A stretch of DNA of 64,000 nt from Halichoerus grypus. Its lineage: Eukaryota; Chordata; Mammalia; Carnivora; Phocidae. The DNA lies in the NCBI RefSeq assembly GCF_964656455.1, contig NC_135721.1, positions 82,998,754 through 83,062,753 on the forward strand, written 5' to 3'. Positions 32,155 to 38,285 of this stretch are shown in pieces; the stretch's first letter is position 1, and each line of letters opens with the position of its first letter. The translations under genes were made by a program, and so were the position numbers. A model generated the notes under the pieces. It saw only the letters and a list, made by a program, of their open reading frames with translations, was not told the DNA's origin and ran no database searches.

Positions 32155-32342
32155 GGGCGCCTGGGTGGCTCAGTGGGTTAAGCGTCTGCCTTCGGCTCAG
32201 GTCGTGATCTTGGGGTCCTGGGAATGAGCCCCACTTTGGGCTCCCTGCTCTGCAGGGAGTCTGCTTCTCCCTCTCCCTCTGTGCTCTCTTTTGCTCACTC
32301 TTAAGTAAATAAATAAAATCTTTAAAAAAAGAGAGGGAAAAA
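32155..32342 (+). mobile_element. Can-SINE
   Basis: Target copies lie at 32137-32154 (AAGAAATCCTATGTTCCA) and 32343-32360 (AAGAAATCCGGTGTTCCA), with two differences. The CT section is short and the tail ends in a GA-rich stretch. Confidence 0.95.
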
Positions 32343-32360: not shown

Positions 32361-32802
32361 AAAGGCAAACATGCTCTGCCATTCGGGGTTGCTGTGTCTA
32401 TCCCAGAGAGAGCAGAGCGAGAAGGAGCGGGTTCTTTGTAGATGACAGTGCTGGGCACCCAATCTCTCCTGGCTCGTGTTCCGTCTCCCCTCCCAATCTG
32501 CCTCTGTGACTGACAAGAGAAGCAGTTACTCCCTGCTAGAAGGACAGAAGGACCAGCATCAGCGGCCAAGCCAAGGCCACGTCCCAGCAGGGGCTGTTAC
32601 CACCGACAGCTGGAAGACGCGCACGTAGGTTATGCTCGCCTGGCCAGCGTTAGGCATCGAGGCTAATGAGATACGGTAAGCTGTAACCTGAGAATTCCCA
32701 CATCAGCACTTGTCTAATGTAACACTGAAATAGTTCCACTCGAGATGCCAACCTGAATAATTTAAAGATTTTAGAGACTGGTGAGTTAATAACCTGCAAA
32801 TT
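32361..32802. other. unassigned sequence
   Basis: No repeat is recognised. Two overlapping minus-strand frames run into the SINE and are not genes. Confidence 0.35.
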
Positions 32803-32910
32803 ATTAACATAATCATTCAGTCAAGTCTAGACATTGAAGGGTCACCTATTTTCTGCTAATCTTTCTTCTACATGAAATTATAATCCATGTGTTCCAGAGA
32901 ACCCTACCCT
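32803..32910 (+). repeat. 108-bp segment copied to 33568
   Basis: The 108 bases from ATTAACATAATCATTCAG to GAGAACCCTACCCT recur at 33568-33675 with one difference (32845 C, 33610 T). A third, internally deleted copy lies at 33753-33821. Flanks differ, so this is a local duplication. The copy here lies in otherwise single-copy sequence and is the likely donor. Confidence 0.93.
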
Positions 32911-32960
32911 AAACAATCTATAAATGAGACCCTTGACTTGGGAGCTGAGTCCTCACAGTG

Positions 32961-33364: not shown

Positions 33365-33480
33365 TATAACAATAACATAACACTGCTTATGTGCCAGGCT
33401 CTCCACTAGACACTCTCTTCTCTCATTCAATCCTCACAACAAACTATGACACGAGTGCTGTTATTCTCGCCCCCAAAATC
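33365..33480 (-). mobile_element. MIR, cut off by rearranged segment
   Basis: TTATGTGCCAGGCTCTCC, CAATCCTCACAACAAACTATG and GTGCTGTTATTCTCG follow the reversed MIR. The homology stops at about 33480, exactly where the copied block begins. Confidence 0.7.
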
Positions 33481-33883
33481 TTAATTTTTGGACTGTCAGG
33501 ATGTTGGCAAGTGTTCAGTTCTCTAGAGTACTCTCAGAACTACGAAATATGGAACCCCAAGCCCATGATTAACATAATCATTCAGTCAAGTCTAGACATT
33601 GAAGGGTCATCTATTTTCTGCTAATCTTTCTTCTACATGAAATTATAATCCATGTGTTCCAGAGAACCCTACCCTATGTGAGAAAAAATTGGCAAGTGTT
33701 CAGTTCCCTAGAGTACTCTCAGAACTATGAAATATGGAACCCCAAGCCCATGATTAACATAATCATTCAGTCATGAAATTACATGAAATTATAATCCATG
33801 TGTTCCAGAGAACCCTACCCTATGTGAGAAAAAACTGGCAAGTGTTCAGTTCCCTAGAGTACTCTCAGAACTTGAGAGTACTC
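33481..33883 (+). repeat. composite rearranged array of local copies
   Basis: Order: block Y (33481-33565, inverted copy of 37271-37355, one difference); block X (33568-33675, direct copy of 32803-32910, one difference); linker ATGTGAGAAAAAA (33676-33688); partial Y (33690-33750); X with a deletion (33753-33821); the linker again (33822-33834); partial Y (33836-33872); then a hairpin (GAGTACTCTCA at 33857-33867, TGAGAGTACTC at 33873-33883). Repeat spacing is 185, then 146 bases. Short frames here share the peptide WQVFSSLEYSQN only because the DNA is copied. Confidence 0.95.
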
Positions 33884-35084
33884 AATTACTCTCCTGTTTT
33901 CAGGAATCTGCCCAGCCTGGACCCTGATCCCCTGACTCAAGCTGGGCTACTCAGATTTTCTCTCTCAGATTTAGGATTGAGTTATTGAAATGCTTGTTAC
34001 TCTCTAGTAGGAGCCTGAAGTGGAAAGAAACGTAAACCCTGACTCATCTGTAGACAAGTCTACACTGAAGTAAAAGACAGCAGCTGTGTGGGATCCAGAA
34101 TGAAACCAACTTTGAACCAACAGCCAGGATAGGACCACACCTGACTCTGAAGATAGAGATGGCGTCCTTGGTCTGCTTGTCACTTTCTGGTTCTTCTCTT
34201 TCCGGAGGCCCGGCTGTTTGTCCTGCCACCTGATTCTAGCACATGCTCTTCTTCTAGATGTTACGTCATGTTGCCTAAGCTATTTTGGGTGATTTTCTAT
34301 TTTTTTTTTTTAAACCAAAAAGCCTCAATTAAGGCAACCTATTATGATAGATACACCTGTCCTCTATCTTCTAATTGAGCCAGTTTTTCTGAAAGAGCAA
34401 TAAATTTTGGAGAAGTAATATTAGACTACTTTATGAGACAAATGCCTTTTTCTTTGTGAAGGTACCCTAAAGGACTAAAAAGATTGTCACAACATGTTTT
34501 CCCAGAAATTTCCTTCCTGAGTTTGAAATGTCAAAGGGATGTATTTTGTTTTTCAAAACATACTTCTGCATTTCATAATTAGTGCTTATAAAATACCACA
34601 AGGCAGGCCTGTTCCAGCGAGTGGGTGGGGCGGGGGGACAAGTCCCACTCTGCGTCTCCCACTTCCAGATCCCCAAATCGACTTTTCATGATGGTGCTCT
34701 TGACCTTTCTGTCACAACATGTCATTCGCTTGTCCATCCTCTGAGACCTTCAGTTTCTCACTGGCACCGTGGAGAAAATACCACAAATTAACTCACCAGT
34801 TGACACTGTCTTCTAATTGTTTTCATACATTCACGTCATTCATTCATACGGGCTACCTTCAGTTGAAAGTCTTTGTTTCCTTCAAATTATCTTTTTTTTA
34901 TCTCAGTAGCTTCTCTTTTGCTGACTCCTTAAAAATAGGTTTAAGTTTCTTAAGCTTTACTTTCTTCTCTTTCTCCTATCCTTTCTTTTCTTTTCTCTTT
35001 GGTTTGTTATTGGTGTTGTTTGTTTTCTTCTTCTCCCAGTTCTTCCGGGCAAATCATGTACCCATGCTTGAGAATTCTTAAATG
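33884..35084. other. unassigned sequence
   Basis: A T run near 34303-34312 and a pyrimidine-rich stretch at about 34960-35040 are the only low-complexity parts. No repeat or exon is recognised. Confidence 0.35.
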
Positions 35085-35565: not shown

Positions 35566-35887
35566 CAGAATTGGGGAGGCTGTCGAGTGCCGTGGTTCGG
35601 AGAACTGGATCCTGACGGCACATGACAGAGGACTGGAAACTGGCTCGATTCTGTCCCCAGGGTGCGCAGATTTACTCAGGCACATGCCCCAAACCCTCCC
35701 CAGTTTTAAGATTATATACCTGGTTCCAGTGTTAATTCTGCACACCCAGAGGTGGCAGGTGGGGCCCTTCTCAGGGTCCAGGCTGGGCAGATTCCTCTGA
35801 AATCATCCACAACAGGTATGTTCCTAAAAAGCCACGTGCATACTACATTTGGGTAAATTGAGTCCTACTCAAAATGCACTACAAATA

Positions 35888-36045
35888 ACTAACATTTATA
35901 TAGCAATGCTGAAGTTAAAAAACTGTTTTCACATTATTCCAGCCATGCCCACAGCAACCCCCTTGAGGTAGCTGGTATTTTCTCCGCAGTGCCAATGAGA
36001 AACCGAAGGTCTCAGAGGACGGACGAGCGAATGACATGTGGGGCT
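35888..36045 (-). mobile_element. MIR, antisense
   Basis: CTAACATTTATATAGCAATG, ACAGCAACCCCCTTGAGG and AATGAGAAACCGAAGG follow the reversed MIR core (ACAACCCTATGAGGTAG, GATGAGGAAACTGAGG). Confidence 0.65.
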
Positions 36046-37270: not shown

Positions 37271-37355
37271 TGGGCTTGGGGTTCCATATTTCGTAGTTCT
37301 GAGAGTACTCTAGGGAACTGAACACTTGCCAACATCCTGACAGTCCAAAAATTAA
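37271..37355 (-). repeat. 85-bp segment, inverted copy at 33481
   Basis: Read on the minus strand, 37355 to 37271 (TTAATTTTTGGACTGTCAGG to GAACCCCAAGCCCA) equals 33481-33565 except one base (37314 G pairs with C; 33522 is T). The flanks on both sides differ from those at 33.5 kb. It is the likely donor of block Y. Confidence 0.93.
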
Positions 37356-37662: not shown

Positions 37663-38285
37663 TGTACTAGTCTGCCAGGGCGGCCATGACCAAGGGCCAC
37701 AGACTGGGAATTAATTTTCTCACAGTCCCGAAAACTAAACGTTGGTGATCAGGGTGTTGGCAAGTTTGGTTTCTTCGGAAGCCTCTCTCCTCGGCTTGCA
37801 GATGGCTGCCTTCTTGTCATGGCCTCACGTGGCCTTCCCTCTGAGCAGGCATATCCCTAGGCTCTGCCTGTCCACATTGCCTCTTCTAATAAGGACACCA
37901 GTCACGTTGGACTGGGTCTCCACCTAAAGGCCTCATCTTTTTTTTTTAGCTTTATTGAGATCTAATTGACGTATAATATTGTGCAAATTTAAGGTGGACC
38001 ATGTGGCAATTTGATAAACTTATATGTTGTGAAATAACCACAGTAGGGGTAGCTAACACCTCTGTCACCTCACATCATTCCCTTCTTGTGTGCGTGGTGA
38101 GAACATTTAAGAACATTTAATTTTCAAGTATCACACACAGTATCATTACCTAGAGTCAGGAAAGGCCTCATTTCAACTGGTCACCTCTCTAAAGGCCCTG
38201 TCTCCAAATACAGCCACATTCTGAGGTACTAAGTGTCAGGGCTTAGACATAAGAATTTGAGGGGGACATAATTCAATCCATAGCA
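37663..38285 (+). mobile_element. MLT1-like LTR (ERVL-MaLR) split by an L1
   Basis: TGTACTAGTCTGCC at the start, CACAGACTGGGAATTAATTT, TCTCTCCTCGGCTTGCAGATGG in part, TAATAAGGACACCAGTCACG, CCTGTCTCCAAATACAGCC and AATTCAATCCATAGCA at the end match an MLT1-type LTR. The element is interrupted at 37937-38160. MaLR elements have no retained envelope gene; only the LTR is present. Confidence 0.8.
37937..38160 (-). mobile_element. L1 3' fragment nested in the MLT1 LTR
   Basis: AAAGGCCTCAT is duplicated at 37926-37936 and 38161-38171. The insert starts with a T run, then TTTATTGAGATCTAATTGAC, GGACCATGTGGCAATTTGA and CACCTCTGTCACCTCACATC, which fits the complement of an L1M 3' end. The insert must be younger than the LTR. 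Confidence 0.8.

Follow-up and report, generated by a model that had tools for sequence, protein, structure and literature searches.

In the literature considered here, template switching between several donors is known chiefly from genomes of disease and cancer, and the scan of great-ape genomes models single reversed runs (PMC7954356). That scan gives 4017 significant events and a gold-standard set whose median is 12 nt and whose longest case is 128 nt. In the account of microhomology-mediated break-induced replication (MMBIR), junction microhomology is 2-5 bp (PMC2621351), and fork stalling and template switching (FoSTeS), MMBIR and serial slippage are described as essentially indistinguishable by breakpoint analysis (PMC4056370). 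Here we describe a patch of ~447 bp at 33481-33927 of a 64,000-nt window of the Halichoerus grypus genome (positions 82,998,754-83,062,753 of contig NC_135721.1, in a 2.40-Gb assembly of 170 contigs; all coordinates are those of the window). Its pieces come from three or more donors close by, and some of them are copied backwards. The patch is best read, and most likely explained, as the product of serial template switching in the germline, in which replication or repair jumped between templates.

Architecture of the patch

The initial annotation had read 33481-33883 as a patchwork of two blocks, Y and X, taken from one inverted and one direct donor nearby. Pairwise matches and a genome search showed that this patchwork is real and larger than was thought. 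Both donors were recovered, but their number rises to at least three with the donor of a further piece, Z, through which the patch continues to ~33927 (Table 1). Measured start to start, the donors lie 0.8 kb (X), 1.9 kb (Z) and 3.8 kb (Y) from their copies, and no other places were reported. X comes directly from the left, and Y and Z come inverted from the right; segments from distinct places and in both orientations are what FoSTeS/MMBIR calls for. As annotated, Y1 is the reverse complement of its donor with one difference and only two bases separate it from X1. These two may be extra bases or a 1-bp microhomology plus one substitution. X1 is a direct copy with one difference, as had been said, but its end had been placed one base short.

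The annotation further described two shortened repeats joined by a common 13-base linker. The repeats are present, but the third copy comprises only part of Y, and only 12 linker bases are common, the 13th being T at 33689 and C at 33835. Y2 covers 33689-33750 (62 nt), whereas Y3 (33836-33872) has only 37 nt. X2 consists of 33753-33773 and 33780-33822; it lacks the middle part corresponding to 32824-32868 and carries CATGAAATTA doubled. The units follow one another in direct tandem, at steps of 185 and 146 nt. Units 2 and 3 carry the Y-X joint with its TG as well as the linker, and the shortened repeats were therefore copied from product already made, not from the donors.

For the linker itself, a local template can be proposed. 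In a background of 264 kb (the window plus 100 kb on each side), TGTGAGAAAATT occurs once, at 37713-37724, and the linker's TGTGAGAAAA is also found at the reverse complement of 37715-37724. The linker was possibly templated by the reverse complement of 37713-37724, with A4 grown to A6. This is suggestive only, because 572 of 19356 random 10-mers (3%) match the local region too and because a right-to-left parse of the patch (see below) picks other linker templates.

At the right end, Z begins 30 nt past the last repeat, and for this reason we counted it as a third donor and extended the patch to 33927. The 26-mer was found at exactly two places in the 2.40-Gb genome, 33902-33927 and 35771-35796, and its backward-read control at none. 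We regard 35771-35796 as the donor from the position of the other copy beside the patch. Between the last repeat and Z lies TGAGAGTACTC, which may be a fold-back of 33857-33867 or a + strand copy of 37300-37310; as Y holds a palindrome, its origin is ambiguous. In the filler that follows, two 8-nt parse pieces (within 33886-33901) are at chance level.

To the left of the patch, an old MIR fragment ends close to its edge. A continuation of this fragment was not seen in the right flank (33873-34150), where the two strands scored 10.5 and 10.0 compared to a mean of 11.1 for 300 shuffles. We saw no sign of a function, for which no test was made, and the patch reads as a mutational scar. In the surroundings there are also SINE-like (short interspersed element) pairs, for example 32174-32330, which we take to be carnivoran CAN-SINEs. 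An 8-bp hairpin stem (GTTAATAA/TTATTAAC, 32785-32808) covers both the beginning of the X donor and the end of V's donor match (Table 1); its folding energy is ordinary, 16% of the background being equally low.

Table 1. Pieces of the patch, their donors and neighbouring features (window coordinates)
Feature	Position	Strand	Relation or evidence
Y1	33481-33565	+	inverted copy of 37271-37355; 84/85 identical
Y-X joint	33566-33567	+	TG; same TG in both units
X1	33568-33676	+	direct copy of 32803-32911; 108/109 identical
Linker TGTGAGAAAAAA	33677-33688	+	12 bases common to both units
Second unit (Y2, Y-X joint, 21 nt of X)	33689-33773	+	matches 33504-33588, 83/85, joint included
CATGAAATTA, tandem, twice	33772-33791	+	jump inside X2 with 2-bp microhomologies CA and TA
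X 3' part, linker and Y3	33780-33872	+	matches 33634-33726, 92/93
TGAGAGTACTC	33873-33883	+	11 nt; inverted, or shorter direct, repeat of part of Y
Filler or native sequence	33884-33901	+	18 nt; exact matches in the 264 kb reach 12 nt at most
Z copy	33902-33927	+	exact inverted copy of 35771-35796; 26/26
X donor	32803-32911	+	local match and genome search
Y donor	37271-37355	-	local match and genome search
Z donor	35771-35796	-	local match and exact 26-mer genome count
Old MIR fragment	33388-33471	-	alignment ends 9 nt before left edge of patch; score 31.7 (local alignment, MIR consensus)
W	34717-34783	+	inverted copy of 35973-36039; 61/67, 5 of 6 differences CpG-type; low-copy within 264 kb
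W donor	35973-36039	-	local match
V	34787-34800	+	exact 14-nt inverted match to 32777-32790, after CAA past W; weak

Rarity and age

When the 403 nt of the initial annotation were used as query, the genome search gave three places, the patch itself (once, at 100%) and the X and Y donors; the right flank gave one place. This search skips very common words and missed the 26-nt Z donor, so that short copies elsewhere may escape it. Membership of both blocks in a dispersed repeat family, named in the initial annotation as one finding that would overturn it, was tested in this way, and no copies beyond the two donors were reported. With three places for the 403-nt query and two for the Z 26-mer, a dispersed family was rejected within the reach of such searches.

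An origin by chance was rejected as well, on the count of low-copy pairs in the 264 kb and on shuffles of the 6-kb region. Across the 264 kb, 47 pairs have a length of 26 nt or more, an identity of 96% or more and a distance of no more than 10 kb. Eleven of the 47 are low-copy on both sides (median depth at most 3), and nine of these 11 belong to the patch. The two others are a 64-nt direct copy (-776..-713 and 1752-1815) and a 28-nt near-tandem pair (94920/95059). With the identity limit lowered, the number of low-copy local pairs rises to 29, those of the patch included. Matches of 16 nt or more were absent from all 40 dinucleotide shuffles of the 6-kb region.

Some of the pairs outside the patch deserve a description of their own. 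The 64-nt direct pair, one side of which lies before the window start, is 98.4% identical, its two sides being 2.5 kb apart; a genome search with 1712-1855 returned only these two places, and neither a target-site duplication nor a poly(A) was seen by eye. It is probably another local templated insertion, from a single donor. Also before the window start, a low-copy inverted pair (-26063..-25911 and -23632..-23480; 153 nt, 90.8%, 2.3 kb apart) is perhaps an older local inverted duplication. Beyond the window end, the low-copy direct pairs 94956-95047/96016-96107 (92 nt, 95.7%) and 94912-94947/95045-95086 share one edge and are perhaps a further compound copy.

Two further origins of the patch can be weighed at this point. 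An assembly error would be expected to yield identical copies from a chimera; here, the copies carry private substitutions, one of them at a CpG, and the assembly contains the block at 100% in one place only, which makes an error very improbable. Furthermore, the patch might be a LINE-1-mediated or RNA-templated insertion, as in class 1 templated sequence insertion polymorphisms (TSIPs), and the run of six A in the linker would agree with this. However, reading the sequence at the edges 33480/33481 and 33927/33928, we found no target-site duplication of at least 5 bp and no poly(A) of at least 10, on which ground a LINE-1 insertion was rejected. Moreover, the donors have opposite relative orientations and one RNA can therefore not give all of them. 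Such an origin is exceedingly improbable.

The Y, X and Z copies and their donors show three private substitutions (two non-CpG, one CpG) in 603 site-branches. For non-CpG sites this amounts to 0.33% per branch (95% interval 0.04-1.2%), which at a substitution rate of 2e-9 per site per year corresponds to an age of ~1.7 My, with a range of 0.2-6 My. An age of perhaps 1-3 My is our reading, within far wider limits. Neither the T/C difference that ends the linker (33689/33835) nor the TG of the joint is part of this count; including T/C would raise the estimate by about half, and errors of the event itself would lower the age. No counted substitution is common to every copy against its donor.

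Proposed order of the copying steps

Serial template switching from these donors is a likely origin of the patch, and, with somewhat less assurance, we favour that the repeats arose in one event together with the first joint. In such an event a germline break or stalled fork near 33.5 kb would have been healed by a 3' end copying short runs from several templates, all of them within 4 kb. Copying would have begun with 85 nt from 37.3 kb (inverted) and continued with 109 nt from 32.8 kb (direct) and the 12-nt linker. The end would next have slipped back onto its own product, re-copying the Y-X joint and skipping 45 nt inside X, and copying would have continued through the linker into Y again. 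The patch would have been closed by a fold-back, some filler and a last 26 nt taken inverted from 35.8 kb. The pieces, the donors, the counts reported for them across the genome and the second use of the new joint are shown by the sequence, whereas the direction from donor to copy, the single event, the left-to-right synthesis and the polymerase pathway are all parts that we infer.

The direction of synthesis was approached by a dynamic-programming parse in which either strand of 32.4-38.4 kb, as well as product already made, could serve as template. Left to right, the patch was parsed into 11 pieces, one of them two untemplated nucleotides, compared to 14 pieces right to left, at costs of 125.7 and 150.0. 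The difference kept its sign at a switch cost of 7 (104.7 compared to 122.0) and of 12 (156.0 with 10 pieces compared to 190.8 with 14). The parse thus favours left-to-right synthesis, provided that the repeats arose together with the rest. If a fork switched to the lagging template ahead and then returned to the leading template behind, synthesis would run left to right, with the same orientations.

Several observations weigh against serial switching in a single event. A number of parse pieces of 6-13 nt are at chance level in either direction, and the 29 nt at 33873-33901 are poorly explained. Junction microhomology is 0 at the left edge, 0-1 bp at Y-X (or two extra bases), 2 and 2 bp inside X2, and 0 at the end of Y3 and at the left edge of Z, while the linker joint has filler and perhaps 2 bp; most of these values are below the 2-5 bp of MMBIR. 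The orientations of X, Y and Z agree with copying by one strand, but this is expected by chance in 1 of 4 cases, and V, inverted and from the left, does not follow. If resected overhangs had served as templates, the right-hand 3' end would have been extended from right to left, opposite to the parse. Hairpins at the breakpoints are not significantly enriched (p = 0.056 for 17 breakpoints, several of them non-independent, against 773 background positions). Finally, the ~126 sites that are shared show zero shared substitutions, which supports a single event only weakly. Breakpoint hairpins were rejected as a cause on the same p value; in energy, the Z donor edge at 35771 is in the lowest 0.5% of the background and 33928 in the lowest 3%, and both share the Z sequence.

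The initial annotation had preferred template switching to plain tandem slippage. For the first unit this stands, since it joins donors 4.4 kb apart and in opposite orientation, and slippage as the source of all copies was discarded. The amplification step, in contrast, may be a tandem duplication, and slippage may explain units 2 and 3. This leads to a history in two steps, where template switching or repair made Y-X (and Z) and a later tandem duplication of the joint, with filler, gave the shortened units. Its first step overlaps with the serial reading. The direct tandem array, with the steps given above and its repeated linker, speaks for such a history, as does the fact that tandem slippage is common and makes an extra donor unneeded. 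However, no substitution is shared by the units and missing from the donors, which leaves little time between the steps, although with ~126 shared sites this argument is weak. We regard two steps as possible but rather unlikely.

In another view, single-stranded DNA (ssDNA) fragments near resected ends were end-joined into the break, as in the breakage-replication/fusion chains of PMC12807874, and then duplicated. The class described there is resembled in the size of the pieces (26-109 nt), in their origin within 4 kb, in the filler at joints and in the scarcity of microhomology. Here, however, the origins of Y and X are used again together with their joint, which needs copying of the product, whereas the origins in the described chains tile with little overlap. 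Moreover, the strands of X, Y and Z fit one extended strand (with the same 1 in 4 chance), while 41 of 79 neighbouring pairs are reported on opposite strands in the chains. Fragment capture is for these reasons distinctly unlikely.

Serial template switching could also have taken place during meiotic double-strand break repair, by polymerase theta or translesion switching on resected ssDNA, and not in a fork accident. The donor distances of ~0.6-3.9 kb are of the same order as the 2-4 kb of resected ssDNA given in PMC7615360, and the same report describes template switching in complex structural variants at human hotspots. The 0-2 bp of microhomology found here stand against the median of 15 bp that it gives for hotspot duplications below 2 kb outside tandem repeats. 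We put this variant forward tentatively and consider it less probable than not.

The opposite orientations and the template switching proposed in the initial annotation are kept as the best reading, but its FoSTeS/MMBIR label is not established by joints with 0-2 bp of microhomology or filler. Judged by sequence, FoSTeS/MMBIR, end-joining synthesis and fragment capture are not separated. Because the microhomology of MMBIR is only partly found and breakpoints do not distinguish the mechanisms, we assigned no pathway and named the locus a local multi-donor template-switch patch.

A second patch and comparison with known systems

At 0.8 kb from the main patch lies a second inverted copy, W, followed by the short match V. 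The start of W is overlapped by 13 nt (34710-34722) that match 34485-34497, and the match of V (32777-32790) is just upstream of the X donor. Inverted matches of at least 14 nt occur with a mean of 0.25 per dinucleotide-shuffled 6-kb region (40 shuffles). Between W and the main patch, no rate difference was detectable (Fisher p = 0.40 for non-CpG and 1.0 for CpG sites, with very small counts and CpG totals made by hand). It is possible that W belongs to the same event. One germline event would then have produced two patches (33481-33927 and ~34710-34800) from at least four donors on both sides within ~5 kb, Y, Z and W from the right inverted and X from the left direct. This would be a heritable small cousin of chromoanasynthesis that used both flanks of an opened region as templates, an extension that we hold to be doubtful. 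The interest of the locus would be greater if the second patch proves to be of the same event.

As a well-preserved germline case with at least three donors, each reported at a single other place, and with re-use of its own joint, the patch offers a test case for the order, strand and timing of switches once it is aligned with relatives. In addition, it shows that scars of this sort can be detected from a single genome, with no second one for comparison.

The patch shares features with several described systems. As in FoSTeS/MMBIR (Hastings, Ira and Lupski 2009, PMC2621351), several templates are used in both orientations, segments are copied again and junction homology is short; in that model, as outlined there, most switches span tens to hundreds of kb with 2-5 bp, whereas here they stay within 5 kb with 0-2 bp. 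The short-range template switches of great apes (Walker et al. 2021, PMC7954356) are likewise germline, evolutionary and local and give inverted copies, but their four-point model as presented has one reversed run per event, in contrast to the three or more donors here, at distances of up to 3.9 kb, and to the re-copying of the product. Class 2 TSIPs (Onozawa and Aplan 2016, PMC5110952) also lack target-site duplications and poly(A) and have microhomology and non-templated bases at their joints; the templates described for them are distant, and the donors found here are within 4 kb. The target-site duplication and poly(A) that mark class 1 (LINE-1) in that account were not found at the patch edges.

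Breakage-replication/fusion insertions (Zhang et al. 2026, PMC12807874) are chains of short pieces from near the break ends, but in the chains described the origins tile and the strands are mixed, whereas origins and a new joint are re-used here and do not tile. The meiotic-break template switching of Hinch et al. (2023, PMC7615360) is similar in being germline, in insertions from more than one template and in ssDNA on the kilobase scale, and differs in its longer reported microhomology. Human-chimpanzee microinversions (Potapova et al. 2022, PMC8755829) are likewise small copies in inverted orientation, and MMBIR at a break has been proposed as their origin; in those described, 17-33 nt are replaced in place between inverted-repeat flanks, whereas at this locus the donors stay and extra copies are inserted. 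Altogether, the patch matches serial template switching in general and illustrates a known kind of mutation with unusual clarity.
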